Source of the DNA: a virus
Length of the DNA: 36,871 nt
Reading direction: 5' to 3' (one strand)
IMG/VR virus record: IMGVR_UViG_3300042988_000630
Location: 1-36,871 of that record
Shown: piece after piece, positions 778 through 34,282 of the stretch
Numbering within the stretch: position 1 is the stretch's first letter
Layout of the letters: each line of letters opens with the position of its first letter
The notes under the pieces: model-generated
What the model was told of the DNA's origin: nothing
Database searches by the model: none
What the model saw: the letters and a program-made list of their open reading frames with translations, nothing else
Translations under genes and position numbers: made by a program

Positions 778-803
778 ATAGAGTGGCGACCCGAGGCACA
801 CCA

Positions 804-3800
804 GTGGCGAAAAACACCTTCTTGCAGTCCCCCTTCGACAACCTGTTGCCGGAGGACGCCACCAAGGCCCCGGTGCTGCCCGGACAGCAGCCGGTAAAGG
901 CGCAAGAACTCCCCGCGATCGAGCAGCCCAAGCAAGAGCCTGACACCCGCCAGCCGAGCACCAAGGCCACCAACCTCCTGCCGCCGCCCGACTACCGGCC
1001 GATCTTCGAGGCCGCCGCCAAGGAATTCAACGTCCCGGTCAATGTCCTGATGGCGCTGGGCCACCAGGAGAGCCGCTACAACCCGAAGGCCATCGGGCCC
1101 GAGACGCAGTGGGGCCGCGCACGCGGCATGATGCAGTACCTCGATAGCACGGCATCGGGCTTGGGCATCAACCCGTTCGACCCGGGCGAAGCCATCCCGG
1201 CCGCCGCCCGTCAACTCCGCGAGCGCCTGGACAAGGGCTATTCGATGGAGGACGCGGTGAAGGAGCACTTCGCCGGTCCGAACCGCAAGCTGTGGGGTCA
1301 GAAGACCGCCGCCTACGGCCGCGAGGTCATGGAGAAGGTCGGCCGGATTGGCGAGATGCTGGGCGCCGAGCCTGCGCCCGTCGATGACCTGACCGTCTTG
1401 CAGCAGCGCCTGGACCAAGAGGAACCCGGGCGCTTCCGCGTGGTCACGCCGGAGTTGAGCCGGCAGCTATTCCGCCAGCAGGAGGTCAGCGACGCCGAGG
1501 CGATCCGCGCCATGCCGGCACCGCAGGCCGAGGCGCCAAGCCTTGCCAGCGACGTCGCCAAGATGGGCATCGGCGGTGTCTACAAGGGCATCGGCCAGTT
1601 GGTCGAGGGCATCGGCAAAATCCCGCAGATCGTCGGCGACTACACCACGACGCCGCTCTACAACCTCATCACCGGCCAGGACAAGCGTACCGGCAACCTG
1701 TTGCAGGGCCCCGCCGAGGCGATCAAGCGCTACGGCGAGAACATCCAGGGCGGCATTAGCACCGACACCAAGCAGGCCATCAAGGACTCGGCGCCAGACG
1801 GCAACCTGCTGGAGCCCTCCACGTGGACCTTCGGCAAGGCGCCGAGCGTGCGCGGCTACATGGCCCTGGGTGCTGACGTGCTGGGCGGCATGCTGCCTGT
1901 CGTGGCCGCGTCCGTCGCAACCGGTGGCGCATCGAACGCCGTCCGCATGGGCACGGCCGCCACGGTCGGCGGGGCCCAGGGAGGTGGTGCCGCATCGCAG
2001 GAGGCACGCGACGCCATCAACGACATGGCCCAGAAGGGAACGCTGGAAAAAGAGTCGGCCTACTACCGCGAACTCATCGCCAACGGCAACACGCCCGAGC
2101 AGGCACTCGCCAAGACCCGCGATGCCGCCGAGCGCTGGGCCTTCCTGCTGACCGCGCCGGTTTCCGGTGCTGGCGGCATGGCCACGAGCAAGATCATCTC
2201 GCCAGCCGAGCGCATCTTCTCGGGCGCCAACCTGCCAGCCCGCATCGCCGGCCGCGCCGGCTTGTCCGGGCTTGAGGAAGGCACACAGGAAGTCACCGAA
2301 GCGCTTCAGACCAAGCAGGGCATCAACCAGGGCGCTGGCACCAACCTCAACCCGATGGATGGCACCTTCGCCGACTTCGTGCTGGGTGCCATGGCCGGGG
2401 GCGTGCCGGGCGCAGTGGCCGGAGCCGCGAGCAAGCGGGAAGCTACCCAGCCCGAGGCTATCCAGCCCGCCGAACCTACGCCGGCCGAAACGGCGCCGGC
2501 AGCGCCTGCCGCTCCCGCAGCGCCAGTCACGGCGCCTGCGCCGCAGCCTGCACCCGGCCCGCTGTCCCGCGCCGTCGAGAACGCGGCCGAAGTCGCAGCG
2601 CCTGAGCAGCGCGTGACTGTCACGGCGCCCGAAGGCCAGATTACGGGATTCGTCGAGTCCTACCAGCAGGACGGGCAGGGCGGTTTCGCGGCCCGCGTGC
2701 TGGGCGATGACGGCCAGGTCTACAACTTCACGAGCGCCGATGGCGTCACGATCACGCCCGAGGCGCCGAAAGCCGGCCCGCTGACGGCCGCCGTTGAGGC
2801 CGTGGCCGCAACGCAGCCCGCCGCGCCCGCTCCCGTTCCCGAGCAGCCCGCCGCACCGGTCGAGGCCGCCGCCACTCCGGTGCAGGCTACCCCCGTGGAG
2901 CAGGCCGCGCCTGTTGCGCCCGCACCAGCGCCCGAAGCCGCGCTCGTCCTGGCCGACATGGACGAGGCCGCGCTGCGCGAGCGCCTGAAGTACATCGCCC
3001 GCCAGGCCAAGGACAACGGCGGCTGGAACAAGATGCTCTCGCAGGCCCGCCGCGAAGTCGAGCGCGAGATCAACAAGCGCACTGCACAGCCACAGGAGAC
3101 GAGCAATGCAGCAGTCGATACCGCTCGTGTACGAGTTCGAGATGACGGTGCCGCAAGCCCTCAAGCACCTGCGGAGGCGCAACCTGGTGAGCCTGGAGGA
3201 CGCCAGGCTGTTGCGCAGCCTGCTGATAGCGCGGCGCCCGCTGCCGCAGAAGTTCTACCCGACGCTCGAACTGATGTTCCTTCTGCGGGCCAAACCGCCG
3301 ACGTTGGCACGGCACTGACGCAACCAACCGCCGATGCGGCCGCCACGGGTAAGGGCAAGTCGGAGACGGCCGCCGAAACCGAGTTGAAGGCCGCTCAGGC
3401 GGCCTGGGCTCAGGCGCACACCAACGCGAACGGCCAGCGCCTAAAGACCGCCCGATTGGCACGCTTGCGAGAGCGCCGCAGCGAGGCCGAGCCCGGCACG
3501 CCGCTGCGCCGCGACATCGACAACGACATCGCCCAACTGGAGAAGGAAATCGGGGCTTCCCCTGAAGCCGCTCAGGCCCGCGACGAGCACGCCGGCAAGT
3601 GGTTCGGCAGCCGCGAGAAAGCCGACGCCTACCTGGCCAAGAAGAAAATCGGCGGCACCCATCAAGTCGTGCAGACCGGCAAAGTCCGGTTCGAGGTCAA
3701 ACCGAAAGGAGTTGAAGATGGCAACAACCAACGTCCCGTCGGGCAGCCCGATGGCGCAGAAGCGGTGGTCGGGCAGCAAGCCGGCCAGCAAGCCCAAGCA

Positions 3801-6800
3801 GCAGCAGCCGAAGCCGCCCCGCAAGAAGTAGTAGGGTTCGCTCAGTGGTGGGAGGGCCTGAACGCCGCCCAACAGGCCCAGGCCTTCCAGGCTGTCGGCG
3901 CGATCGGCACTGGATCGCAAGCGACCAAGGCCAGCGAACTGCCGAGCAATGGCATCACCGAACGGATCAAGGCGCTGCACGCCGGTGGCTGGCAGCCCCA
4001 AGCGCAAAATGTCCAAAACGCACCGCAAGGAGCCGCGGCAACCGAAGCTCAAGCCCCGGCAGATCAAGCGCCAGAAACAGCGCGAGGCGATGCAGCCGCC
4101 GCAGCCGCCAATGGAGTACCAGCGGATGGAAGAGCCGCCCCGGTGGAAGCCGCTGGGATAACGGCGGCCAACACCACCGAGCGCAATGCGACTGTCGCGC
4201 CGCCCGCGCAGCCAGCCGCGAACGACGCCGCCGCACCGACCGAGCCGACCCCTCCCGGTGGCGGGAAGCCCGACCTGTTTGCCGGGAACAAGATCTTCAC
4301 CGCCGACAAGGTGGAGGCCGCCCGCGCCCGCCTGCGCTCGAAGTTGAATCAGATGAACTCGGGCATCGACCCCGAGGTGGTCATCGACGGCATGACGATT
4401 GCCGGCGCCTACATTGAGGCGGGTGTTCGCAAGTTTTCGGACTACGCCGCCGCCATGACAGGCGACTTCGGCGACGCCATCAAGCCCTACCTGCTGTCGT
4501 TCTACGAGGCCGCCCGGAATTACCCCGGCATCCAGGCCGATGGCATGACCAGTGTGGAGCAGGCGAAAGCCGAGCACGCCGCACTGATGAAGACCGCCGA
4601 CACCGCGCCGGTTGCAGAGGCAATCGGCGAGACGGTCGAGAAGCCTGCCAAGCGCACCAAGAAGACCGGCGCCAAGACAGACATGACCCTGACGCAGGAT
4701 TGGGGCATGGAGCACATCGACGCCTATTCAGACGAGGGCGAGCAGGTCAAGGCCGCCTTTCTGAAAGAGGCAAAGACCTACCTGAACACGGTGGCCGGCA
4801 TCCTGGCCGAGCAGGGTTTTACCCCCCACACCGACGCCAAAGGCCGCCCGGAAAAGGCGGTGTCGGTGAACGAAAGCGGCGTGGCCACCAGTGGCGACGT
4901 CACGCTGACGCTGGACGGCCCGAACGGCATCGGCATCTACGCCCACATCGGCGGCACGTCACTGCGTGGCGCCGTGCCCACGACGGCCAGCGGCGTGTCC
5001 CTCATGGTCCGCGTGGCGCAAGGGGGCGACCGTTTTGGAGTGAAGGACCGGAACCGCTGGATGCCGGTGGACTTGTCGGCCGCTGACCTGTCAGAGTTGA
5101 TGCGGAAGGCGGTCGGCGAGTTCAAACCCAAAGGAGCGCAAGATGCAAAGCCTGTACAAACCCAGCCTGTACCCGCCCGGGATACGGCAGAAGCTGGGGC
5201 TGATGCCGCCGCTGGCGACCGAGATCGCCAACCGGTGGGCCCTGGGGTGGCCGGAGGCGGTGACGGAACTGCTGAAGGCGGGCAAGTATCTGGAAGCGCT
5301 GACGGCGCAGGAGCAGGCGGAGCGCGAGGCACTGAGCGAGCCGGGCAACAGCCACCTGGCGCGGCACGAGATCGCGCAGGAGTACGGCCTGACGCTGGGC
5401 CCGCCGACAATGCCGCCGACTTCGTAATCGACGCCGAAGACATCGGCAAAGGTGGGCTGGGCAAGAAGTACCGCGACAACGTAGCGGCCATCCGCATCCT
5501 CAAGACCATCGAAACCGACGGCCGCGTGGCCACCCCGGACGAGCGCAAGCAACTGGCGAAGTACGTCGGCTGGGGCGCCATGAAGGGCCCCTTCGACCCC
5601 GAGAACAAGCAGTGGGCCAAGCAGCATGCCGAACTGAAGGAACTGCTGTCGCCCGAGGAATTCCGCGCCGCCCGCAAGTCCACCCTGGACGCGCACTACA
5701 CCAGCCCCGTGGCGATCGGCGCCATGAATGCAGCGCTGGAGCGCCTGGGCTACAAGGGCGGCCGGATGCTGGAGCCGTCCGTCGGCGTCGGCAACTTCTT
5801 CGGCCTGATGCCGGCCGGCGTGCGCAAGGCCTCGCAGCTCTACGGCGTGGAACTGGACTCGCTGACCAGCCGTATGGTGGCCGCGCTCTATCCGAAGGCG
5901 AAGATCGCCAAGGCGACCGGCTTCGAGGACTTCCAAATCCCGTCCGAGTTCTTCGACCTGGTGCAGGGCAATCCGCCCTTCGGCAGCCAGCCCCTGGTGG
6001 ACGCCGAGCGCAGCCCGTACTCGGGCTTCTCGATCCACAACTACTTCCTGGCCAAGGGCATCGACAAGCTGCGCCCGGGCGGCATCATGCAGGTGGTGGT
6101 GTCGCACAACTTCCTGGACGCGCAGGACAACCGCGCCCGCAAGTGGATCAGCGAACGCGCCAGCCTGATCGGTGCTGTGCGCCTGCCCAACACCGCCTTC
6201 AAGGACAACGCCGGTACCGAAGTCGTCACCGACATCCTGATCTTCCAGAAGCGCGACGCCGACGGCGCCGGCCGGTCCGACGTCGTGGACGGCTGGGTGG
6301 ACGTGGTGGACCAGGTGAACACCAACCCCAAGACGGGAGAGAGCGTCACCCACAAGGTGAGCCGGGTGTTCACGCAGAAGCCGAACCTGGTGCTGGGCAA
6401 GCCGTCGGCTGGCGGCACCATGTACCGGGCCAACGAATACACCGTCGAGGCGACCGGCGACATCGGGCCCCAGCTTGACGCCTGGGTGCAGACGCTGCCC
6501 GAGGGCATCTACACGCCGATCGAGCGCAAGCCCGAGGCCGAAACCAACATGGCCGTGCCCGACGGCGTGAAAGCGGGCTCCTACTTCGTGGGCGCCGACG
6601 GCGAGATCATGCAGCGCGGCGACGACGTGCTGGGCGACAAGACCGCCCGCGCCTGGACCGCGCCGAATGCCAAGGCAGCCGAGCGCATGAAGGGCATGAT
6701 CGGCCTGCGCGATGCGCTGCGCACGCAGATGCGCCTGGAGCGCTCGCCCGATGCCGCCGAGGCCGAGATCGAGGCCAACCGCGCCACCCTGAACAAGCTC

Positions 6801-9800
6801 TATGACGCCTTCCTGAAGGCGCATGGCCACATCAACAGTCAGACCAATCGCCGCCTGTTCCTGGACGACACCGAGGCCCAACTGATCCAGGCGCTGGAGT
6901 TCGACTACGACAAGGGCATTAGCAAGGCCACGGCCGAGAAAGAGGGCATCGACCCCCGCGAGCCCAGCGCCACCAAGGCCGACATCTTCAAGCGCCGCGT
7001 GGCCTTCCCGCCGCAGGACTTCATGACCGTTGCCACGGCCAAGGACGCCCTGCTGGCATCGTTGAACTATCGCGGCAAGGTGGACCCCGCCTACATGGCC
7101 GACGTCTATGGCAAGCCCATGGACGAGATCGTCAAGGAATTGGGGGACGTCGTGTACGACGATCCGCAGGCCGGCATCGTCACCGCCGACGAATACCTGT
7201 CGGGCGACGTGAAGACCCGGCTCGCCGAGGCCAAGGCCGCCGCGCAGAGCGACCCGAAGTACAAGCGCAACGTCGAGGCCCTGGAGAAGGTCATCCCGAT
7301 CGACAAGAAGCCGTCCGAAATCTCGGTGAGCATCGGCGCAGCCTTCGTGCCCGCCGAGGTCTACGAGCAGTTTGTCAAGCACATCTCGGGCGGCAATGCG
7401 ACGGCCGGCTACATCAAGGCCACCGGCCAGTGGCTGCTGGCATTCACTGGCGGGACCGAGCCCGCGCTCAACACCGGCAAGTTCGGCACTGCGCAGATGT
7501 CGGCGCAGGAACTGTTCCAGTTGACCATGCTGGGCCGTGGCGCCGTGGTGAAGAAGACCGTGCGCAACCCGGACGGCACCACCACCACGGTGGTCATGGA
7601 GAAGGAAACCGAGGCCGCCCGCGAGAAACAGAACGCCATCCGGGCCGAATGGCAGTCGTGGCTTTGGAGCGAACCGGCCCGCGCCGATCAGATCGCGTCC
7701 ATCTACAACGACAAGATGAACCGGATCGTGAAGCGGAAGTACGACGGTTCGCACCTGTCGTTCCCCGGCATGAACCCGGCCATCAGCCTGCTGGAGCACC
7801 AGAAGAACGGCGTGTGGCGTGGCTTGCAGTCCTACCAGGTGCTCTATGACCACGTGGTGGGCGCCGGCAAGACCTTCGAGATGGCGACGCTGGCCATGGA
7901 GATGCGCCGCCTTGGCATCGCCCGCAAGCCGCTATTCGTGGTGCCCAACCACCTGACGCTGCAATGGCGCAGCGAGTTCACGCGCCTCTACCCAGGCTCG
8001 AACATTCTGGCCGCCACCCCCGAGGACTTCTCGAAGGACAACCGCGAGCGCCTGTTCTCGAAGATCGTCACGGGCGATTGGGATGCCGTCGTGATCGGCC
8101 ATTCCAGCCTGAAGAAGATCGGCCTGCCCGAGGAAACCGAGAAGGCGGTGCTGCAAGAGCAGATCGACGAGGTATCGCAGGCCATCGAGGACATGAAGCG
8201 GGCCCGGGGCGACCGCAACATCGTGCGCGACATGGAGGGCATCAAGGCCCGCCTGGAAGCCAAGATGAAGGACAAGCTCGCCGCCATCGGCAAGCGCTCC
8301 AAGGTAGTGACGTTCGACGAGTTGGGCATCGACGCGATGTTCATCGACGAGATGCACGAGTTCAAGAACCTGGCCTACAACTCCACCATGGACCGCAACC
8401 CGGGCATGGGGAACCCGAACGGCTCGGCCAAGGCCTTCGACCTGTTCGTCAAGACGCGGTGGCTGTTCGACACCTTCGGCGACAAGACCCCCTACATCAC
8501 CGCCACCGGCACGCCCGTCTCCAACTCGCTGGTGGAGATGTTCAACATGCAGCGGTACATGCAGTACCCGACGCTCAAGCGCGACGGCCTGCACGTGTTC
8601 GATGCCTGGGCCAAGCAGTTCGGCAGCGTGGAGAACGTCTACGAGGTGGCGCCGTCTGGCTCCGGCTATCGTCAGTCCACCCGGTTCGCCAAGTTCACGA
8701 ACCTGCCGGGCCTGATGAGCCTCTACAACTCGTTCGCCGACACCATCACGCTGGACGACTTGAAGGCGCAGGAGGAAGCCCAGGGAAAGCGCTTCCCGGT
8801 GCCCAAGATGGTCAACGGCAAGCCGCAGATCGTGGTGGCGCAGCGCTCGCCTGCCGTGGCCAACCTCATGGGCGTGCCCATGGCGAAGACCGACGAGGCC
8901 GGCCAGATCAAGTTCCTGGCCGACCTGAAGGCGCCGATCCAGATCACGCAGAAGCCCGACACCGGCAAGTGGACCGCAAAGGTGGGCGAGTCGCACCTTG
9001 GCGAGTTCGACACCGAGCAGGACGCCCGCCTGAAGATCGTGGAGCGGGCCATGACGCCCGAGGTCACGGTGGACCCCGAATCCATACTCGGTCGCTTTGG
9101 GCGCCTGAAGCAGTTGACCAAGGAAACCAAGGGCAAGGTCAACGCCCTGTCCCTGACCGGCGAGGCCAACAAGGCAGGTTTGGATTACCGCCTCGTTAAC
9201 CCGGCCGCCCCGGACTTCCCCGGCTCCAAGATCAACCTGGCCGTGGACAACATGGTGCGCACCTACAAGCAGTGGGATGCCGACAAGGGCACCCAGCTTG
9301 TGTTCTGTGACCTGTCCATTCCGCTGTCGGCTCGGGCCAGCTATTCGAGCAAGGCCCGCCGCCTGTACGTGCGCGACGATGCCGGCGCCGTGGAGATGAA
9401 GCGCGGCACCATGCACACGCTGGAGGGACAGGAAAGCCTGCCGTACTTCGTGGTGCAGCGGGGCGAGAAGGACGCCAAGCGCTTCGACGTCTATGACGCC
9501 GCCTCGGGCCTGCTGGTGATCCGCGACGCCCGCACCAAGCAGGACGCCGTGGACCAGGCCAACACCGCCCTGGCCGACGAGAACAAGCGCCAGCGCTGGA
9601 TCGACCGCCGCGAGGCTGCCGGCGAGATCACGCAGGAGGCCATCGACGAGTTTAACAACGAGAACGACATCGAGGCCGACGGCATCGAGGCCTTCACCCG
9701 CGAGGACATCGCGGGCGTGTCGGGCGCCGCGAAGTTCTCGGTCTACGACGACATCAAGGCCAAGCTGATCGGCAAGGGCATCCCCGAGCGCGAGATCGCC

Positions 9801-12800
9801 TTCATCCACGACTACGGCACCCCGACGGCCAAGGATAAGCTGTTCAAGGCCGTGAATACGGGCGAGGTGCGCTTCCTGCTGGGCTCCACCCCGAAGATGG
9901 GCGCCGGCACCAACGTGCAGAAGCGCCTGGTGGGCCTGCACCACATCGACGCGCCGTGGCGCCCGTCGGACCTGGAGCAGCGCGAGGGCCGCATCATCCG
10001 GCGCGGCAATGAACTCTACAACCGCGATCCCGAGGGCTTCGAGGTGTTTATCGGCCGCTACGCCACCGAGCAGACCTACGACACCCGCCGCTGGCAAATC
10101 CTGGAGCACAAGGCCCGGGGCATCGAGCAACTGCGCAACTTCGACGGCACGATCAACGAGATCGACGACATTGAGGGCGAGGCCGCCAACGCCGCCGACA
10201 TGAAGGCCGCCGCCTCCGGCGATCCGCTGATCCTGGAGGAAACCCGCCTGCGCAACGACATGCGCCGCCTGGAGCAGTTGCAGGCCGCCCATGCAGACGA
10301 TGTTCTGTCCATGAACCGCAAGGCCCGGTCCGCCGACGAATACGCCAAGACTATCGGGCCGCGCCAACTGGCCGAGGTCAACACGCTGGTGGCGGCCGTC
10401 AAGAAGAACCCCGTGGACAAGGACGGGTTCGCGCCCGTCGCCATCGACGGCAAGAAGTTCGACGCCAAGGAAGCCGCGCAGGAGGAAATCGCCCGCGCCT
10501 TCTCCGTGGTGCGCACCGGCTTGCGCGAGGAATCCATCGTGGTCTTCCGTGGCGTGGAGTTCACGCTGATGCGCAACGGCAACGTGACGCTGGCCGAGTC
10601 GCCCACCGGCACCATCGGCTCGTGGTCGGTGTCCGAGGCCTTCTCGCCAAGTGGTTTCGTGCAGCGCATGGTGAACTACGTCGGCCGCCTGCCGGCCATG
10701 TCCGACAACATCCAGGCCAGCATCGACAAGTCCGCCAAGGATGCCGTGGCGCTGCGCGAGCAGGCCAAAACGCCGTTCGGTCAGGCTGCTGACCTGGAAG
10801 CCGCCCGCGAGGAATACAAGCGCGTGCAGCGTGCCCTGCTGGCCAAGGGCCCGGCTGTGCCTGAAAGCCAGAAGCCGGCCGTGGCCGCTGGTATCGAGGC
10901 ACAGAAGGCCCGGCTGCGCGAGTTGGGGCTAGGCGAGGCCCTGGACGAGTTCTTTGCCAGTGCGGAAGACCAGCCGCGCTACTCGGTGCGCCCCGACGGC
11001 ACGCCGGACGCCGAGTTCGGCCCGTTCTACACCGAGATGGACGCGGGCACCGCCATTGTGCGCCTGATGGGCGAGCAGGCCGGTGAGGCGATCGTCACCC
11101 ATCCAGTCCTGGGCGAAATCAGCCTGGTGTACGGCGACGGCCGCGCCGGCTTGCGCCACATCGCCGACCGCCGTGGCGACGACATCCTGGGCCGGCTGCC
11201 CGACCTGCTGGCCAACGGCAAGGTCTACACCAAGCCCGGGCAGGAAACCCGCGTGTTCGTGGGCAACGACCGCGACGAGGCCGTGCTCCGGCTGGACTGG
11301 AACGGCCAGGCCAAAACGTGGCTGCTGTCGGCCTACGAAAAGTATCCCGACCTGAAGACGGGCCAAACTGCGAAGGTGTCCCGCCGCTCGCAGACAGTGC
11401 GCGAGCGTTCGGCGCCGGGGCTGTCGGTGGCGGAGGCCCGCAAGGCGATCACGACCGGCTCGGTTGGAAGCGTGGTGCGCAACCTGCTGGACAACGGCCT
11501 CATCGTGGTGCACCAGACGCCCAAGACCCTGCCCAAGCGGATTGGCCGCAACGTGCGCAATGTGCAGGCCGTGACGACGCCCGACGGGCGCGTGCACATC
11601 GTGGCCAGCGCCGTCACCCGCGAAAACGCCCGCGCCGTGCTGCTGCACGAGATGTTCCACCAGGGCGGCGAGCGCCTGATCGGCACGGCCGAGTGGGGCA
11701 AGCTGATGGGCCGCATGGCCTCCATCTACCGCCAGAGCGAGCAGTCCACCGGACGGGCCCGGGAGTTCTTTGACCGTGCCCGCGAGCGCGTGGCCGCCGC
11801 CAAGGCGCAGGGCGCGGTGGACACCCGCATGGAGGTGGAGGAATTCGCGGCCTACGCCATTGAGGAATACGAGCGTGCGCCCGACAGCCTGCCGGCCGCG
11901 ATCCGCAAGTGGGTTGAAGACCTGATCGGCGCGGTGAAGGCGTGGCTGTCGGTCCGCTACGGCAAGCAAGTCGGCCAGGTGACTCCTGCCCAACTGGCCG
12001 TTATCGCCAAACTGGCGGTGATCGACAGGGGCGCCAGCTACGGCCCCGAAATGCTCAACGGGTTGGGCACACTGTTCCCTGCCACAGACGGCGCCAACTT
12101 CTCGGTGGCCCCAGAGCAGGCCGGTGCGGTAATCGACGAGGCCAGCAACGCGCTCGACGACACCGGGCCCATCGCCAAGGACGACTACATCGGCCGCGTG
12201 GTGGGCGACCTGTCGCTGGGCGCCAAGCTGATCGTGCACCCGCGCACCGTGGCGGCCGTGCACCCTGAGTTCACGCCGGTCTACCGCACCGCCATCTCGC
12301 AGATGGAAACCCGCGACGAGATCATCTCGGACCTGGGCAAGGACGTGCGGGCCTACGACTTGCTTGAGCAGGCCGGCAAGGACAACGTGAACCGCGCCCT
12401 CGAACTAGGCCGCCTGACGTCCACCGTCTTCAGCACCGACCAACTGCGCGAGGGCGTGGAAAACACCGGCTTCCGCAAGGTGGTGGTCATCGGCGAGGAC
12501 GGGAAGCCCCAGACCGCCAAGGTGCCGGTCACGTCGCTGCTGACCAAGCCGGGCGAGTCCATCACCCTGACCGACGACGAGATCGTGGCCTACAAGGGCT
12601 TGCGGGCGATGTTCGACCGGGCCCTGGACATGATGCGCGACCAGACCCTGGACGAGCTTGGGTTCTCGGAATTCGCCGGCAAGCCGAACGCCGCGCAGGC
12701 GATCCGCGACCTCATCACCGACCAGACGCCCGCCGATCAAGCCGAGAAGCTGCGCAACATCGCCAAGTTCGTGGCCGAGATCGAGCAGGCCAAGCGGGCG

Positions 12801-15110
12801 GGCTACGTGCCCTTCAGCCGTTACGGCGACTACGTGGTGACGGTGAAGGAGAAGATCGCCGACCTGACCTTCAAGGCCGACGGCAACGGCGGCTACCTCG
12901 TCGGCGACGTGCCGGCATCCATGACCGAGGACATGCTATCGCTGGGTGCCACCCAGACCGAGGGCGGCAAGTGGTCGATTCGCGCCGAGCAAAAGAAGGC
13001 CGTGGACCGCCTGACCGAGCAGACCGTCTACTCCGCCAAGGTGGAAACCGGACTGCGCGACCTGATCCCGTCGCGCAGCGCTCAGTCGGTGGAGGACATC
13101 CCAGCCGTGCGCGAGGCGATTGAGAAGGCCCGGCGCGAGTGGGTGGGCGACAATCCGGCCCGCCGCATCGTCGCCTTCAAGAGCACCCAGCGGAAGCCTG
13201 ACGCGCCCGTGCGCCTGTCCGATGTCGATGCCCTGGCCGAGATCGCCAGTATCGACAACGCCACCTGGGACGCCGTGCGCGACAAGCTGGCCGACGCCAT
13301 CAAGTCCCGCAGCTTCCGCAAGCACTTCTTCCACTCCGACAACGTGGCGGGCTACACGGGCGACTTCGAGCGCTCGGTGGCCGACTACGTGATCGGCATG
13401 GCCGGCTACCTGTCGCGGCGCCAGCACATGAAGCGCTGGGACAACTCGGTGTCGGCCATCACCGACAAGCCGAAGCTGGCCGACTATGCGGCGAAGTACC
13501 GGCAGTACGTGAACGACCCGCAGGAGGAACTGGCGCTGGTGCGGCAGATCGGGTTCTTCGCCTACATCGCGGGTGTGATGGCCACGGCCTTCGTTAACCT
13601 GACGCAGGTGCCCATGCTGTCGGTGCCAACCCTGGCGCAGGTGGCGCCCACCTCCCTCGTGCTCAAGGAAACGGCCCGGGCCTACAAGGACGCGCTGAAG
13701 ATGCTGGGCCGCCCGACCCGGGTGGGCCTTGATATGTTCGACCCCGAGAAGGCGCCGGCCGACGTGCGCGACGCCCTGAAGGAGGCTTGGGCCGAGGGCT
13801 CCTTCGTGCCGCTCGAAACCTTTGACCTGATGATGACGGCCCGCCAGCGCAACGTCGGCGCCCGCAAGGGGGTTCGGGCCTTCAACAACGCGACGCAAGT
13901 GGTGTCGATGGCCTTCACCTTCGCCGAGCGCATGAACCGCCTGGTGACGTTCATCGCCGCCGCCCGACTGGCCGAGAAGCGGGCTGTGCAGGAGAACGCC
14001 AAGCGTGTGCTGGCCGGGGATGCCCTGGCCCGCCAGACGACGCTGGGCAAGAACTGGACGCCCAAGAACTTCGCCGAATGGGTGGTGGACGAGTCGCAGT
14101 ACCGCATGGGCAAGGCCAACCGCCCGACCATGATGCGCGGCGTGGGCTCTGCCCTCATGCAGTTCAAGGGCTTCATGCTCCAGACCTTCGAGGCCTGGTA
14201 CCGCATGGCCGCCCTGCACGGCAAGGACGGCAAGCTGGCCGCCCTGGCATCGCTGGCCAGCGTGGTGGCAATCGGTGGTATCTGGGGTCTGCCGGGCGCT
14301 GATGACCTGCGCAAGCTGATCGAGTCGATCTACCGCCAGATCACCACCCGCGACCTCGACCTGAAGACCGAGCTTCGCGCCTGGGTGGCTCGCACCTCGG
14401 GCAGCAATGCCGTCGGCCAGATGGTCACCAAGGGCGCCAGCTACCCGCTGGGCGTGGACCTGACCCGGGTGGGCCTGGGATCGGTGGTGCCGGATTCCCC
14501 GCTGGCAGCGGCCGGCATCCCGTTCGACCTGCTGGTGGGCCGCCCGAAGCGGGCCTTCGAGAAGGGCTCGACCGGCGACTACATCGGCGCGGCCGCAGAG
14601 TTCACGCCGAACTTCGCCAAGAACATGCTGGTGGCTGGTGGCTGGCGCCTCGACGGCGTGCGCGACAAGCAGGGCAACCGCATCCTGACGCCCGACGAGT
14701 TGACCGGTGCCGACATCGGCATGCGGGCCATCGGCTTCCAGCCGTCGATCGTCACCGACGTGCGCGACTACGAGTATGCCCAGCGCCGTCAGGAAACCGC
14801 CGTCGATGCGATGAAGCGCAGCTACACCAACAAGATCGCCAAGGTGATCGGCCAGATGGAGCGCACCAGTGATCCGGCCGAACTCAAGAAGCTGGATGAG
14901 CGGCTGGCGGAACTCTATGCCGAGATCGACGAGCACAACGCGAAGGCCGATCCCGAGGCTGTCATCAGGATCGGGGCGCGTGCAATCCGTAACCGCGTGG
15001 CGCGTGAGATGGAAGGCGTGAAATCGACCTGGGGCCGTGAGCGCAAGGCGGCGCGTGGTGCTGCCGAGGAACTGCGCGGGGTGTTCGGCCTAGACGAGGA
15101 CCAGGAGTAG
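804..15110 (+). CDS. Giant polyvalent ejection/antirestriction protein
   Basis: About 4,768 aa. Start: GTG at 804 with GAGG at 793-796 (7-nt spacer); an in-frame GTG at 783 lacks a clear RBS. Domains in order, with approximate residues from the 804 start: SLT-type lytic transglycosylase (64-185, catalytic Glu in HQESRY, E89); Gly/Ala-rich hydrophobic segments (253-546); small polyvalent modules joined by Ala/Pro linkers (546-1540); N6-adenine methylase (1543-1823, LEPSVGVGN at 1656, NPPF at 1723); SF2 helicase (about 2330-3110, GAGKT with K2356, DEMH from D2515, QREGRIIRRG at 3059); a nuclease-like domain resembling the phage barnase/EndoU/RelE-like group (3391-3523); zinc metallopeptidase (HEMFH, H3615-H3619); and a long C-terminal polyvalent region (from 3766) with hydrophobic stretches near 4250-4283 and 4478-4500. 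By analogy with Bcep22-like phages, it is probably packaged and injected with the DNA. Several linkers overlap small out-of-frame genes. Confidence 0.93.
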   Translation: MAKNTFLQSPFDNLLPEDATKAPVLPGQQPVKAQELPAIEQPKQEPDTRQPSTKATNLLPPPDYRPIFEAAAKEFNVPVNVLMALGHQESRYNPKAIGPETQWGRARGMMQYLDSTASGLGINPFDPGEAIPAAARQLRERLDKGYSMEDAVKEHFAGPNRKLWGQKTAAYGREVMEKVGRIGEMLGAEPAPVDDLTVLQQRLDQEEPGRFRVVTPELSRQLFRQQEVSDAEAIRAMPAPQAEAPSLASDVAKMGIGGVYKGIGQLVEGIGKIPQIVGDYTTTPLYNLITGQDKRTGNLLQGPAEAIKRYGENIQGGISTDTKQAIKDSAPDGNLLEPSTWTFGKAPSVRGYMALGADVLGGMLPVVAASVATGGASNAVRMGTAATVGGAQGGGAASQEARDAINDMAQKGTLEKESAYYRELIANGNTPEQALAKTRDAAERWAFLLTAPVSGAGGMATSKIISPAERIFSGANLPARIAGRAGLSGLEEGTQEVTEALQTKQGINQGAGTNLNPMDGTFADFVLGAMAGGVPGAVAGAASKREATQPEAIQPAEPTPAETAPAAPAAPAAPVTAPAPQPAPGPLSRAVENAAEVAAPEQRVTVTAPEGQITGFVESYQQDGQGGFAARVLGDDGQVYNFTSADGVTITPEAPKAGPLTAAVEAVAATQPAAPAPVPEQPAAPVEAAATPVQATPVEQAAPVAPAPAPEAALVLADMDEAALRERLKYIARQAKDNGGWNKMLSQARREVEREINKRTAQPQETSNAAVDTARVRVRDDGAASPQAPAEAQPGEPGGRQAVAQPADSAAPAAAEVLPDARTDVPSAGQTADVGTALTQPTADAAATGKGKSETAAETELKAAQAAWAQAHTNANGQRLKTARLARLRERRSEAEPGTPLRRDIDNDIAQLEKEIGASPEAAQARDEHAGKWFGSREKADAYLAKKKIGGTHQVVQTGKVRFEVKPKGVEDGNNQRPVGQPDGAEAVVGQQAGQQAQAAAAEAAPQEVVGFAQWWEGLNAAQQAQAFQAVGAIGTGSQATKASELPSNGITERIKALHAGGWQPQAQNVQNAPQGAAATEAQAPADQAPETARGDAAAAAANGVPADGRAAPVEAAGITAANTTERNATVAPPAQPAANDAAAPTEPTPPGGGKPDLFAGNKIFTADKVEAARARLRSKLNQMNSGIDPEVVIDGMTIAGAYIEAGVRKFSDYAAAMTGDFGDAIKPYLLSFYEAARNYPGIQADGMTSVEQAKAEHAALMKTADTAPVAEAIGETVEKPAKRTKKTGAKTDMTLTQDWGMEHIDAYSDEGEQVKAAFLKEAKTYLNTVAGILAEQGFTPHTDAKGRPEKAVSVNESGVATSGDVTLTLDGPNGIGIYAHIGGTSLRGAVPTTASGVSLMVRVAQGGDRFGVKDRNRWMPVDLSAADLSELMRKAVGEFKPKGAQDAKPVQTQPVPARDTAEAGADAAAGDRDRQPVGPGVAGGGDGTAEGGQVSGSADGAGAGGARGTERAGQQPPGAARDRAGVRPDAGPADNAADFVIDAEDIGKGGLGKKYRDNVAAIRILKTIETDGRVATPDERKQLAKYVGWGAMKGPFDPENKQWAKQHAELKELLSPEEFRAARKSTLDAHYTSPVAIGAMNAALERLGYKGGRMLEPSVGVGNFFGLMPAGVRKASQLYGVELDSLTSRMVAALYPKAKIAKATGFEDFQIPSEFFDLVQGNPPFGSQPLVDAERSPYSGFSIHNYFLAKGIDKLRPGGIMQVVVSHNFLDAQDNRARKWISERASLIGAVRLPNTAFKDNAGTEVVTDILIFQKRDADGAGRSDVVDGWVDVVDQVNTNPKTGESVTHKVSRVFTQKPNLVLGKPSAGGTMYRANEYTVEATGDIGPQLDAWVQTLPEGIYTPIERKPEAETNMAVPDGVKAGSYFVGADGEIMQRGDDVLGDKTARAWTAPNAKAAERMKGMIGLRDALRTQMRLERSPDAAEAEIEANRATLNKLYDAFLKAHGHINSQTNRRLFLDDTEAQLIQALEFDYDKGISKATAEKEGIDPREPSATKADIFKRRVAFPPQDFMTVATAKDALLASLNYRGKVDPAYMADVYGKPMDEIVKELGDVVYDDPQAGIVTADEYLSGDVKTRLAEAKAAAQSDPKYKRNVEALEKVIPIDKKPSEISVSIGAAFVPAEVYEQFVKHISGGNATAGYIKATGQWLLAFTGGTEPALNTGKFGTAQMSAQELFQLTMLGRGAVVKKTVRNPDGTTTTVVMEKETEAAREKQNAIRAEWQSWLWSEPARADQIASIYNDKMNRIVKRKYDGSHLSFPGMNPAISLLEHQKNGVWRGLQSYQVLYDHVVGAGKTFEMATLAMEMRRLGIARKPLFVVPNHLTLQWRSEFTRLYPGSNILAATPEDFSKDNRERLFSKIVTGDWDAVVIGHSSLKKIGLPEETEKAVLQEQIDEVSQAIEDMKRARGDRNIVRDMEGIKARLEAKMKDKLAAIGKRSKVVTFDELGIDAMFIDEMHEFKNLAYNSTMDRNPGMGNPNGSAKAFDLFVKTRWLFDTFGDKTPYITATGTPVSNSLVEMFNMQRYMQYPTLKRDGLHVFDAWAKQFGSVENVYEVAPSGSGYRQSTRFAKFTNLPGLMSLYNSFADTITLDDLKAQEEAQGKRFPVPKMVNGKPQIVVAQRSPAVANLMGVPMAKTDEAGQIKFLADLKAPIQITQKPDTGKWTAKVGESHLGEFDTEQDARLKIVERAMTPEVTVDPESILGRFGRLKQLTKETKGKVNALSLTGEANKAGLDYRLVNPAAPDFPGSKINLAVDNMVRTYKQWDADKGTQLVFCDLSIPLSARASYSSKARRLYVRDDAGAVEMKRGTMHTLEGQESLPYFVVQRGEKDAKRFDVYDAASGLLVIRDARTKQDAVDQANTALADENKRQRWIDRREAAGEITQEAIDEFNNENDIEADGIEAFTREDIAGVSGAAKFSVYDDIKAKLIGKGIPEREIAFIHDYGTPTAKDKLFKAVNTGEVRFLLGSTPKMGAGTNVQKRLVGLHHIDAPWRPSDLEQREGRIIRRGNELYNRDPEGFEVFIGRYATEQTYDTRRWQILEHKARGIEQLRNFDGTINEIDDIEGEAANAADMKAAASGDPLILEETRLRNDMRRLEQLQAAHADDVLSMNRKARSADEYAKTIGPRQLAEVNTLVAAVKKNPVDKDGFAPVAIDGKKFDAKEAAQEEIARAFSVVRTGLREESIVVFRGVEFTLMRNGNVTLAESPTGTIGSWSVSEAFSPSGFVQRMVNYVGRLPAMSDNIQASIDKSAKDAVALREQAKTPFGQAADLEAAREEYKRVQRALLAKGPAVPESQKPAVAAGIEAQKARLRELGLGEALDEFFASAEDQPRYSVRPDGTPDAEFGPFYTEMDAGTAIVRLMGEQAGEAIVTHPVLGEISLVYGDGRAGLRHIADRRGDDILGRLPDLLANGKVYTKPGQETRVFVGNDRDEAVLRLDWNGQAKTWLLSAYEKYPDLKTGQTAKVSRRSQTVRERSAPGLSVAEARKAITTGSVGSVVRNLLDNGLIVVHQTPKTLPKRIGRNVRNVQAVTTPDGRVHIVASAVTRENARAVLLHEMFHQGGERLIGTAEWGKLMGRMASIYRQSEQSTGRAREFFDRARERVAAAKAQGAVDTRMEVEEFAAYAIEEYERAPDSLPAAIRKWVEDLIGAVKAWLSVRYGKQVGQVTPAQLAVIAKLAVIDRGASYGPEMLNGLGTLFPATDGANFSVAPEQAGAVIDEASNALDDTGPIAKDDYIGRVVGDLSLGAKLIVHPRTVAAVHPEFTPVYRTAISQMETRDEIISDLGKDVRAYDLLEQAGKDNVNRALELGRLTSTVFSTDQLREGVENTGFRKVVVIGEDGKPQTAKVPVTSLLTKPGESITLTDDEIVAYKGLRAMFDRALDMMRDQTLDELGFSEFAGKPNAAQAIRDLITDQTPADQAEKLRNIAKFVAEIEQAKRAGYVPFSRYGDYVVTVKEKIADLTFKADGNGGYLVGDVPASMTEDMLSLGATQTEGGKWSIRAEQKKAVDRLTEQTVYSAKVETGLRDLIPSRSAQSVEDIPAVREAIEKARREWVGDNPARRIVAFKSTQRKPDAPVRLSDVDALAEIASIDNATWDAVRDKLADAIKSRSFRKHFFHSDNVAGYTGDFERSVADYVIGMAGYLSRRQHMKRWDNSVSAITDKPKLADYAAKYRQYVNDPQEELALVRQIGFFAYIAGVMATAFVNLTQVPMLSVPTLAQVAPTSLVLKETARAYKDALKMLGRPTRVGLDMFDPEKAPADVRDALKEAWAEGSFVPLETFDLMMTARQRNVGARKGVRAFNNATQVVSMAFTFAERMNRLVTFIAAARLAEKRAVQENAKRVLAGDALARQTTLGKNWTPKNFAEWVVDESQYRMGKANRPTMMRGVGSALMQFKGFMLQTFEAWYRMAALHGKDGKLAALASLASVVAIGGIWGLPGADDLRKLIESIYRQITTRDLDLKTELRAWVARTSGSNAVGQMVTKGASYPLGVDLTRVGLGSVVPDSPLAAAGIPFDLLVGRPKRAFEKGSTGDYIGAAAEFTPNFAKNMLVAGGWRLDGVRDKQGNRILTPDELTGADIGMRAIGFQPSIVTDVRDYEYAQRRQETAVDAMKRSYTNKIAKVIGQMERTSDPAELKKLDERLAELYAEIDEHNAKADPEAVIRIGARAIRNRVAREMEGVKSTWGRERKAARGAAEELRGVFGLDEDQE
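3106..3318 (+). CDS. Nested gene N1 inside the giant ORF (70 aa, unknown)
   Basis: The ATG at 3106 has AGGAG at 3094-3098 (7-nt spacer). The 70-aa product has a balanced composition, with helices rich in Leu/Arg (LKHLRRRNLVSLEDARLLRS), unlike an out-of-frame shadow. By hand count only about 7 of 70 codons end in A or T, so the GC3 bias follows this frame. Here the giant frame reads a featureless Ala/Pro/Gly/Asp/Arg stretch between two well-formed modules. The gene starts where the module ending in INKRTAQPQE finishes. Function unknown. Either a genuine overlapping gene or a former separate gene read through by a fused ORF. Confidence 0.55.
   Translation: MQQSIPLVYEFEMTVPQALKHLRRRNLVSLEDARLLRSLLIARRPLPQKFYPTLELMFLLRAKPPTLARH
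3718..3831 (+). CDS. Nested gene N2 inside the giant ORF (37 aa, basic)
   Basis: AAAGGAG at 3705-3711 precedes the ATG at 3718 by 6 nt. The product has 37 aa, ends at TAG TAG and is Lys/Pro/Gln rich (KPASKPKQQQPKPPRKK), suggesting a small basic, possibly nucleic-acid-binding peptide. It uses the same frame as N1 and N4 relative to the giant ORF. The 30 nt around its start closely match those around the N4 start (5117-5146). Function not recognised. Confidence 0.45.
   Translation: MATTNVPSGSPMAQKRWSGSKPASKPKQQQPKPPRKK
4009..4161 (+). CDS. Possible nested gene N3 inside the giant ORF (50 aa, basic)
   Basis: This frame encodes a 50-aa basic peptide rich in Lys, Arg, Gln and Pro (KPRQIKRQKQREAMQPPQ), with most codons ending in G or C. 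It occupies another Ala-rich linker of the giant protein and uses the same frame as N1, N2 and N4. Unlike them it has no clear Shine-Dalgarno sequence. An upstream in-frame ATG at 3949 overlaps a protein-like part of the giant frame and seems less likely. Weakest of the four nested candidates. Confidence 0.28.
   Translation: MSKTHRKEPRQPKLKPRQIKRQKQREAMQPPQPPMEYQRMEEPPRWKPLG
5143..5427 (+). CDS. Nested gene N4 inside the giant ORF (94 aa, unknown)
   Basis: The ATG at 5143 follows AAAGGAG (5130-5136) at 6 nt. The 94-aa product looks like a folded protein: a short Tyr/Pro-rich N-terminus, then helical segments such as TEIANRWALGWPEAVTELLK and a C-terminal SRHEI-like stretch (LARHEIAQEYGL). By hand count about 9 of 94 codons end in A or T. 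The overlapping giant frame is Gly/Ala/Asp/Arg-rich low complexity and becomes protein-like again exactly at the nested stop (ADFVIDAED). The gene lies between the module ending EFKPKG and the methylase domain. I know no function for it; strongest nested gene of the four. Confidence 0.6.
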   Translation: MQSLYKPSLYPPGIRQKLGLMPPLATEIANRWALGWPEAVTELLKAGKYLEALTAQEQAEREALSEPGNSHLARHEIAQEYGLTLGPPTMPPTS

Positions 15111-28722: not shown

Positions 28723-28934
28723 GCCAATCCCGCCTGACGTCCCTGGTCGAAACCTGCGCCAACATCGCCATCGGCTTCGTGGTGTCGGTCATCATCACGG
28801 CGATCGTCATGCCCGCCTACGGGCACCACGTCACCCTGGCTGAGAACATCGAGATCACGACCATCTTTACCGTCGCCAGCATCGCCAGGGGCTACATCGT
28901 CCGCAGGGCCTTCAATCGCTGGGGGCGGGCATGA
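28719..28934 (+). CDS. Two-helix membrane protein (DUF7220-like)
   Basis: 71 aa. Hydrophobic helices ANIAIGFVVSVIITAIVMPA and about 48-58 (TTIFTVASIARGYIV), ending in a basic VRRAFNRW. It matches, from memory, a widespread family of small phage membrane proteins of unknown function. It overlaps both neighbours by 4 nt. Confidence 0.75.
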   Translation: MSQSRLTSLVETCANIAIGFVVSVIITAIVMPAYGHHVTLAENIEITTIFTVASIARGYIVRRAFNRWGRA

Positions 28935-30379
28935 GGTTCGGCAGCGTTTGCAGCGGCATTGAGGCCGCATCCGTGGCATGGCATCCGCTAGGCTGGAAGG
29001 CGGCATGGTTCAGCGAGATTGAGCCATTCCCGAGCGCGGTGCTGGCGCATCACTACCCAGATACACCCAACCTGGGGGACATGAAAACTCTTCCTCGTCG
29101 TATTCTGAGCGGCGAGGTTGAGGCCCCTGACCTGTTCTGCGGCGGCACACCGTGCCAAGCCTTTTCCGTGGCCGGTCTGCGCAAGTCACTCGACGATGCT
29201 CGCGGCAGCCTTTCTTTAACATTCTGCGAAATCGCCGATGCAATTGACCATGTTCGAGGCATGCGAGGCCTCCATCCTGCCATCGTCTTCTGGGAGAACG
29301 TCCCCGGAGTCCTTAGCGCAAAAGACAACGCATTCGGGTGCTTTTTGGCTGGGCTTGCCGGCGAAGATGAGCCGCTTCAGCCACCAGGGGGAAAGTGGGG
29401 CAACGCTGGTGCTGTGCTTGGACCCACGCGGTCAGTCGCATGGCGGACCCTGGACGCCCAATACTTCGGAGTGGCCCAACGACGCCGCCGTGTGTTCGTT
29501 GTCGCAAGTGCTAGAGACGGGTTCAATCCCGCAGCGGTTCTTTTTGAGTGGGACCGCAGCCGCCGGGATATTGCGCCGAGCAGAGAGGCGGGGGAAGGCG
29601 CTTCCCACGCAACTGCACCGTGCCTTACAAGCAGTGGCAGAGGCGTAGAACGCACGGGCGACACGCGGGGGCAAGAACCGGTGGTGGCTGTTCAGGCGTC
29701 TCAATCTGGCGTCAGGGTCAACGCGACTATCGGAACCCTTGATGCGAACTACGGCAGTCGGCGGCACAACGGGGTGATGGTCCCTGTCGCCTTCGGCGGC
29801 AACAACCAGAGCGGCCCCATTGACGTGGCCACGGCCAGGAACGCATGTGCCAGCGCCAGCGGGCGGATGGACTTTGAGACCGAGACGTTCCTGGTGCAGC
29901 CAGTCACCCACTCCCTTCGCGGTGAGGGTTTTGACGCCAGCGAGGATGGCACTGGGCGGGGGACGCCATTGGTGCCCATCGCCTTCCATCCCACTCAAGA
30001 CCCCATCAGCAGCACCGAGGTGTGCCACAGCATCGGGGCGAATGAGAACGCCACGGCGGCGGTGGCGCATGTCCAGATCATGCCGACGATGACCTCTGGC
30101 GGCCCAGGCGCATCAAGCCACAACCAAGTCAGCGGGCAGATGCGCGACGCTTACATGGTACCCACGACCGCCATGCAAGTCCGCCGCCTGACGCCAGTGG
30201 AGTGCGAGCGCCTTCAGGGGTTCCCGGACGGCTATACCGCCATCCCGTGGCGCGGCAAGCCTGCCGAAAACTGCCCTGATGGACCACGCTACAAAGCCCT
30301 GGGTAACTCTTGGGCCGTTCCGGTGGTGCGGTGGATAGGGTTGAGGATTGATGCGGCTATGGCCAAAGAGCTGACGTGA
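28931..30379 (+). CDS. DNA (cytosine-5) methyltransferase
   Basis: 482 aa. Motif I FGSVCSGIEAASVAW, motif IV with the catalytic Cys (GGTPCQAFSVAG), motif VI ENV (FWENVPGV), motif VIII QRRRRVFVVA, and the C-terminal RRLTPVECERLQGFP and ALGNSWAVPV. The target-recognition part (about 230-420) is long, polar and Gly/Thr-rich (for example VAFGGNNQSGPID), a feature of phage Dcm-type enzymes. It likely protects phage DNA from host restriction. A second protein-like frame lies inside it at 29238-29648. Confidence 0.93.
   Translation: MRFGSVCSGIEAASVAWHPLGWKAAWFSEIEPFPSAVLAHHYPDTPNLGDMKTLPRRILSGEVEAPDLFCGGTPCQAFSVAGLRKSLDDARGSLSLTFCEIADAIDHVRGMRGLHPAIVFWENVPGVLSAKDNAFGCFLAGLAGEDEPLQPPGGKWGNAGAVLGPTRSVAWRTLDAQYFGVAQRRRRVFVVASARDGFNPAAVLFEWDRSRRDIAPSREAGEGASHATAPCLTSSGRGVERTGDTRGQEPVVAVQASQSGVRVNATIGTLDANYGSRRHNGVMVPVAFGGNNQSGPIDVATARNACASASGRMDFETETFLVQPVTHSLRGEGFDASEDGTGRGTPLVPIAFHPTQDPISSTEVCHSIGANENATAAVAHVQIMPTMTSGGPGASSHNQVSGQMRDAYMVPTTAMQVRRLTPVECERLQGFPDGYTAIPWRGKPAENCPDGPRYKALGNSWAVPVVRWIGLRIDAAMAKELT
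29238..29648 (+). CDS. Possible overlapping ORF inside the cytosine methyltransferase
   Basis: 136 aa in the +1 frame of the methyltransferase (ATG 29238 or 29250). The C-terminal half, SLSQVLETGSIPQRFFLSGT followed by AGILRRAERRGKALP, matches from memory a conserved 'hypothetical' sequence seen in many phages. The methyltransferase is equally well conserved here, so the DNA may code in two frames, or database copies may be shadows of the enzyme. There is no clear RBS. Confidence 0.3.
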   Translation: MQLTMFEACEASILPSSSGRTSPESLAQKTTHSGAFWLGLPAKMSRFSHQGESGATLVLCLDPRGQSHGGPWTPNTSEWPNDAAVCSLSQVLETGSIPQRFFLSGTAAAGILRRAERRGKALPTQLHRALQAVAEA

Positions 30380-30391
30380 AGGGGGCCGCCA

Positions 30392-31156
30392 ATGCACTAC
30401 TTTAAGCGAAACATCGGCGACTACCACAAGAAGGCCGGCCGCCTGACCATGCTTCAGCACGGAGCGTACACGCTCCTGATGGATGCGTGCTACGACCGTG
30501 AACGCTTCCCCACGCTTGATGAGGCCATCGACTGGTGCTGGGCATCGACCGAGGATGAAGTCAACGCGGTGAAGTTCGTCCTGGGCAAGTTCTTTGAACT
30601 GGTGGACGGCCGCTACAGGCAGGCACGCATTCAGGAAGAGATTGACGACTTCCACAGGAAGTCCGAAACCAACAGACGGATCGCGCTTGAGCGTGAAGCA
30701 AAGCGCACGAGTGCGAAACGAGACGTGCAGAAAAACGCACGAAACGTGGTCGATCCGTCACCAGACGTAAACGAACCGCCACCTAACCAAGAACCAAGAA
30801 CCAATAACCAAGAACCAGAAGATATAGAAGAAGCTGGCGCTTCCTCGGGCGGCAAGCCGGCCCGGTTCGATCCGCTGGCGCTGGAGTTGCCCGAAGCCAT
30901 TCCTCGCCAGTCCTGGCATGACTGGATCGCCTACCGCCGCAAGCGCAAGCTCTCCACCACCGAGCAAACCGCCCGGGCGCAACTCGCCAAGCTGGCGGAG
31001 TGGGCCGCAGCAGGGCACCGGGCGGCCGAGGTGATCGAGCACAGCATCACCAACGGCTGGCAGGGCCTGTTCGAGCCGAAGGCGGCAGCCCGCCGCGTGC
31101 CCGCCCGAGAGAACTTCGCGGCGATCGACTACGGCAACGGAATCCAAGACCTATGA
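30392..31156 (+). CDS. DUF1376 (YdaU-like) replication protein
   Basis: 254 aa. The N-terminal 90 residues match DUF1376/YdaU (FKRNIGDYHKKAGRLTMLQH, GAYTLLMDACYDRERFP). A charged linker follows, then a C-terminal helical domain (WHDWIAYRRKRKLSTTEQTA, AAEVIEHSITNGWQGLFEP) that in such proteins binds the origin or the helicase loader. It overlaps the DnaC-like gene by 4 nt. Likely the phage replication initiator (O-like). Confidence 0.85.
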   Translation: MHYFKRNIGDYHKKAGRLTMLQHGAYTLLMDACYDRERFPTLDEAIDWCWASTEDEVNAVKFVLGKFFELVDGRYRQARIQEEIDDFHRKSETNRRIALEREAKRTSAKRDVQKNARNVVDPSPDVNEPPPNQEPRTNNQEPEDIEEAGASSGGKPARFDPLALELPEAIPRQSWHDWIAYRRKRKLSTTEQTARAQLAKLAEWAAAGHRAAEVIEHSITNGWQGLFEPKAAARRVPARENFAAIDYGNGIQDL

Positions 31157-34188: not shown

Positions 34189-34282
34189 GGAAGCGTGCCA
34201 GAGTGGCTTATTGGGGCTGCCTTGAACGCAGCAGGGCGACCGCGAGGCCGCCCCGAGGGTTCGAATCCCTCCGCTTCCGCCA
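34189..34282 (+). tRNA. tRNA-Ser(UGA)
   Basis: Acceptor GGAAGCG pairs with CGCTTCC (34272-34278), then G and CCA are encoded. Anticodon stem GCTGC/GCAGC with loop CTTGAAC; anticodon TGA at 34223-34225. T arm GAGGG-TTCGAAT-CCCTC. A long variable arm (34234-34253, GCGA loop) marks a class II tRNA. It is flanked by phage genes on both sides and is not next to int, so it seems to be phage-carried. Confidence 0.93.

Follow-up and report, generated by a model that had tools for sequence, protein, structure and literature searches.

Some overprinted genes of phages, among them phiX174 E and lambda Rz1, lie completely nested within another gene on the same strand and carry their own ribosome-binding site. 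The gene described here, N4, shares both properties; unlike E and Rz1, it belongs to a family that turns up again and again at a single position within an antirestriction gene, in phages and in plasmids of two phyla, and that is repeatedly found free-standing. The gene that contains N4 is of the same kind as P1 DarB and the DarB-like methylase-helicase polyvalent proteins (PMC5512222), with a transglycosylase, an Eco57I methylase and a SNF2/ResIII helicase; P1 DarB differs in beginning with the methylase and in lacking a nested ORF. TnpV (PF14198), known from Tn4451 and conjugative elements, is like N4 a small helical protein of mobile elements, and TnpV of Tn4451 was once suggested to be an excision factor by its likeness to lambda Xis (PMC3158075). 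The word TnpV does not occur in the survey of polyvalent proteins published by Iyer et al. in 2017 (PMC5512222), and searching its text by words turned up no gene that overlaps another or is nested in it. In open-access full texts, neither a gene nested in a DarB-like gene nor a nested TnpV was found described, which is not proof of novelty.

N4 and the giant gene that contains it

The window, meaning the whole stretch of 36,871 nucleotides that was analysed, is part of a phage record (IMGVR_UViG_3300042988_000630). The features at the locus are as follows.

783 to 15110, plus strand: host giant gene, DarB-like polyvalent protein of 4775 aa (ORF list, domain search)
1005 to 1286, plus strand: SLT transglycosylase domain at the N-terminus of the giant protein, aa 75-168 (domain search)
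5130 to 5136, plus strand: Shine-Dalgarno sequence AAAGGAG, 6 nt 5' of the N4 ATG (sequence; enrichment across relatives)
5142 to 5424, plus strand: host-frame linker under N4, of low complexity, poorly conserved and stop-free (translation, frame comparison)
5143 to 5427, plus strand: N4, very probably a nested gene, for a predicted five-helix protein of 94 aa (ATG to TAA, homologues, predicted structure, dual-frame constraint)
5424 to 5520, plus strand: conserved host block IDAEDIGKGGLGKKYRDNVAAIRILK, starting at the N4 stop (host-frame translation; relatives)
5910 to 6170, plus strand: Eco57I-type adenine methylase domain of the giant protein, aa 1710-1796 (domain search)
7827 to 8369, plus strand: ResIII/SNF2-type helicase domain of the giant protein, aa 2349-2529 (domain search)

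The giant protein carries an Eco57I-type methylase followed by a SNF2/ResIII helicase on one polypeptide, the arrangement by which DarB-like proteins are recognised. Among annotated proteins it is most closely related to DarB-like giant proteins, the nearest being in Pseudomonas phage 8P, and over the methylase region it shares 44-66% identity with genes whose annotation reads DarB-like or DNA methylase. Translated in the host frame, the DNA under N4 encodes a Gly/Ala/Asp-rich linker. The sequence-only reading of this locus had held that the host frame regains protein character exactly at the N4 stop, and the conserved DAEDIGKGGLGKKYRDN block does begin there. LPD36 has been reported as a domain preceding DarB methylases (PMC5512222); the block at the N4 stop sits where it would be expected, and is a candidate LPD36 by position only. 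Elsewhere the window encodes a tRNA-Ser (anticodon TGA, 34189-34282) and a separate second DNA methyltransferase (PHROG 116, 28931-30379), with a primosomal protein gene nearby (30392-31156).

N4 is read in the +1 frame relative to the 4775-aa ORF. A nested gene of 94 aa had been proposed at 5117-5427; the stop and the length were correct, and the start had taken in the leader, the ORF itself beginning at 5143. The AAAGGAG that had been noted 6 nt from the start lies at 5130-5136, before the ATG, and a recount of codons ending in G or C gave 85 of 94, against an earlier figure of about 85. Length was rejected as proof of N4: ORFs that overlap the giant gene and are longer than N4 occur in the ORF list of the GC-rich region 783-15110, so an ORF of this size could be due to chance. 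The abundance of long spurious ORFs in the gene also speaks for reading N4 as a mere out-of-frame shadow of it. Such a shadow is extremely improbable, being refuted at the sequence level by the conservation, dual constraint, Shine-Dalgarno enrichment and stand-alone copies described below.

Conservation of N4 and constraint on both frames

Using tblastn and scans of viral and genome contigs, about 35 relatives of N4 were found with identities of 35-71%. After the viral and genome contig scans the set held 39 distinct sequences among the matches listed, 30 nested and nine stand-alone. N4-related sequences come from phage 8P, IMG/VR phages, plasmids and chromosomes. In the tblastn search the phage 8P match lay inside a 'structural protein', and the matches on Cupriavidus and Acidovorax plasmids were 'hypothetical protein' genes just 5' of an 'N-6 DNA methylase'. 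When these plasmids were read in three frames the methylase frame was open through N4, so each annotated pair is in fact a nested arrangement in which the host start was placed too late. RefSeq has here either dropped the nested gene or cut the host gene short after it. Three divergent N4-like copies in two Burkholderiales genomes (L050, L051 and L052) have one internal stop each and are likely to be decaying.

At every nested locus N4 was intact, the host frame was N4+2, and the third frame was ridden with stops (140 in all). Against an expectation derived by shuffling N4 codons among synonymous positions, the 30 distinct nested copies, a label set partly by the openness of the host frame, had no host-frame stops where 38.8 were expected, and the nine stand-alone copies had 16 where 21.1 were expected. 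The phage group described below is free of such labelling. Mean pairwise identity was 53% in the N4 frame versus 33% in the host frame, and in the aligned giant gene (six relatives) the top-ranked 60-codon windows in which the +1 frame was conserved above the host frame all fell at N4, the one stretch of this kind in the alignment. Shine-Dalgarno pairing had a median of -6.5 kcal/mol at nested N4 starts versus -2.9 kcal/mol at neighbouring ATGs (p 6e-11), and nested starts of the phage group also scored above local ATGs (p 6e-18). Locus L001 has no Shine-Dalgarno sequence before the ATG used in the alignment.

N4 thus combines a conserved, complete ORF with constraint on both frames and a start signal of its own, the properties by which an overprinted gene is recognised. 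Homologues, dual constraint and Shine-Dalgarno enrichment bear out the nested 94-aa gene of the sequence-only reading. The pattern that was to have spoken against it, N4-like sequence found only out of frame and broken by stops in relatives, was absent; stand-alone copies exist, and N4 contains no stops in the nested relatives. From these comparisons, N4 is very probably a genuine overprinted gene, nested in its host, and belongs to a family of small helical proteins that share one site and one frame.

Other nested proteins at the same site and their possible relation to TnpV

Further DarB-like genes were retrieved via their methylase, not via N4. Those on Pseudomonas, Burkholderia, Enterobacter and Methylovorus plasmids carry a different small ORF in the same place and frame (...WKILDRWALNSP...; the plasmid group), as do those of phages Itty13, PEp14, SopranoGao, Atu_ph08, VvAW1 and POI1126 (MNLxNWISQARxHWKEHxP...; the phage group). 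Scanning with the phage group brought up 48 distinct loci among the matches listed; nesting in the same frame was seen in 48 of 48, and no host-frame stops occurred where 58.4 were expected. On four Firmicutes plasmids, from Monoglobus, Cohnella, Enterococcus and R. albus, the nested protein, again in this frame, matches Pfam TnpV (E 5e-43 to 2e-7). The P1 DarB, Bradyrhizobium and Piscinibacter homologues start near the methylase and have neither the linker nor a nested ORF. No relatives came up when viral contigs were scanned with the plasmid group or with either of two single TnpV proteins.

Two loci were set apart. In Burkholderia phage JC1 (L058:2627-2965) a different same-frame ORF (MTATQLLDVLTKALQNKAPTAYRRMKADG..) occupies the nested site; its likeness to TnpV is marginal (E 0.03) and it was not counted in the family. 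Pseudomonas plasmid pPp1290 (L061:2534-3136) has a nested ORF and was not counted as cleanly nested, the frames of linker and methylase being mutually shifted just 3' of that ORF.

The PHROG family phrog_938, annotated 'endolysin', ends with the nested protein (positions 2084-2185), apparently because the deposited orf33 of Sinorhizobium phage PBC5 (L071, 1-4309) runs from the giant-gene frame into the nested frame. This deposited upstream half, which continues in frame into the nested protein, is what a programmed +1 frameshift would give if the N-terminal half of the giant protein ended in N4. Such a frameshift is nevertheless very unlikely. The Met and the Shine-Dalgarno sequence are conserved at the nested start, in-frame stops lie just upstream of it in most members, the upstream stretch of the N4 frame is not conserved, and stand-alone copies start at the same Met; the fusion in PBC5 is probably a simple indel.

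Profile comparison linked the groups in three steps: N4 to the plasmid group (E 9e-7), the plasmid group to the phage group (E 7e-4) and the phage group to TnpV (E 1.4e-3), each scoring above all 60 column-shuffled controls. Direct comparisons of N4 and of the plasmid group with TnpV did not rise above the column shuffles, so the tie between N4 and TnpV rests on this stepwise chain through two intermediate groups. N4 and its 12 relatives gave no match to PF14198, and phage-group members reached at most 20.7 bits where the curated Pfam cut-off is 27 bits. N4 was therefore rejected as a TnpV member by the Pfam cut-off; it is also shorter and has its own IANRWxxGWP motif.

AlphaFold predicts N4 to be helical (pLDDT 84.7), with helices at residues 12-20, 23-35, 37-46, 49-65 and 74-81. 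The predicted helices of the phage group (3-17, 19-28, 31-51 and 56-68) match N4 in core spacing, and in both the second core helix has ten residues with a conserved proline at its start. Searches of N4 against known families (Pfam, PHROGs, NCBIfam, PADLOC and PDB sequences) gave no credible match; hits to DUF6417, DUF6415 and CARF were dismissed as weak and not common to the family. Fold searches started from either N4 or the phage group yielded nothing confident, and 2APL (P. gingivalis PG0816; Foldseek probability 0.82, E 1.4) is a fold lead only. With moderate confidence, N4, the plasmid group, the phage group and TnpV may be placed in one superfamily, the step from N4 to the plasmid group being strongly indicated by the profiles and the later steps, to the phage group and then to TnpV, moderately.

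Free-standing copies and possible functions

N4 was free-standing at nine loci. The settings include Nitrosomonadales-type integrative elements with a Toprim/PriCT primase and an integrase, and a Ralstonia plasmid on which N4 adjoins trfA. The sequence-only reading had proposed a search for stand-alone N4 next to shorter DarB-like genes. This arrangement was not found: the separately annotated plasmid copies are also nested, and the truly stand-alone ones sit in integrative elements or plasmid backbone, not beside a DarB-like gene. Four stand-alone copies compared with one another differed mainly at codon position 3; the stand-alone copies appear to be under purifying selection. The gene tree intersperses them with nested copies, and its well-supported branches require at least three switches of state, so the free-standing state looks derived within the N4 family.

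Of ten genomes in which N4 is stand-alone or its giant gene has no methylase, nine showed no DarB-like methylase; several of the ten are incomplete metagenome bins, and one has a giant gene with the MTase deleted. At L024:828-12263 a giant polyvalent protein has lost its entire methylase-helicase part in frame and kept N4. The stand-alone elements L026, L028, L030 and L031 have in common a dispersed intergenic repeat of 25 bp (CGCCGTCYCGCCAGCGCCGACTTTT) in a cassette-array-like arrangement. A conserved ORF of 53-54 aa (..IIIDGCGHKHYRQEFRFEG.GFFGRIHAA.LNWLRRN) lies 3' of stand-alone N4 at L027:3584, L028:6324 and L031:6321.

It had been suggested that N4 is a partner of the methylase/helicase half of the giant protein. 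As a dedicated subunit, chaperone, inhibitor or loading factor it would resemble the small helpers of the P1 Dar system, of which P1 DarB requires some, such as Ulx (PMC9024508). Such a partner would explain the fixed position: the nested protein directly precedes the methylase in phages and plasmids, and the linker-less proteins of P1, Bradyrhizobium and Piscinibacter lack it. On the other hand, stand-alone N4 genes seem to persist under purifying selection in genomes in which no DarB-like methylase was seen, N4 outlasted the methylase-helicase part in L024, and N4 is not restricted to genomes with a DarB-like gene (none was seen in nine of ten, some of these genomes being incomplete). The stand-alone genomes thus weaken the partner idea, which the data do not require; we regard it as a tentative reading, somewhat doubtful on these grounds.

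The distant link to TnpV, for which a role in excision has been postulated (PMC3158075), and the stand-alone copies near integrases, primases or trfA would fit a small DNA-transaction factor, either an excision/directionality factor or a replication regulator. Several observations make this unlikely. The proteins are slightly acidic (median pI 5.7, and 4.8 in the phage group), the phage copies lie inside a large gene that adjoins virion genes, and the Xis idea is based on an old homology. No Xis match appeared in the fold or profile searches, a missing match that does not exclude Xis.

Our tentative proposal is that N4 works autonomously as an accessory protein for incoming mobile DNA, made together with the DNA-entry protein and probably acting on a host protein. 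From the evidence of the sequences this would stand about level with a methylase/helicase partner and above a DNA-transaction factor, and it would explain both the escapes and the methylase-less genomes. We infer that ribosomes would start internally at the Shine-Dalgarno sequence of N4 on the giant-gene mRNA and read the +1 frame, giving a small, slightly acidic, five-helix protein. Other ribosomes would meanwhile make the DarB-like protein, passing through a disposable linker, and the common mRNA would tie N4 output to that of the DNA-entry/antirestriction protein. N4 would then probably act on a host protein during establishment of the incoming DNA. Copies seem to have become free-standing several times in integrative elements and plasmids, persisting there without a DarB-like methylase.

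Annotation pipelines exclude or mishandle nested genes, and proteins hidden at the DarB site have been largely overlooked. The family offers an extensive and testable example of two proteins encoded over long evolutionary times by the same stretch of DNA, with natural controls in the stand-alone escapes and the linker-less hosts. It would bring a component not described before into a widespread system of antirestriction and DNA entry, and would place TnpV, for which annotations as a transposase or excision factor are common, in a new setting. On balance we lean slightly towards the broader view that a nested family including N4 and TnpV has persisted over a very long period, in a single frame and at a single position, within the DarB-like DNA-entry genes that Proteobacteria and Firmicutes phages and plasmids carry, with several break-outs as free-standing genes. 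If true, this would be a case of deeply conserved prokaryotic overprinting, with an undescribed accessory protein that is co-delivered or co-expressed.
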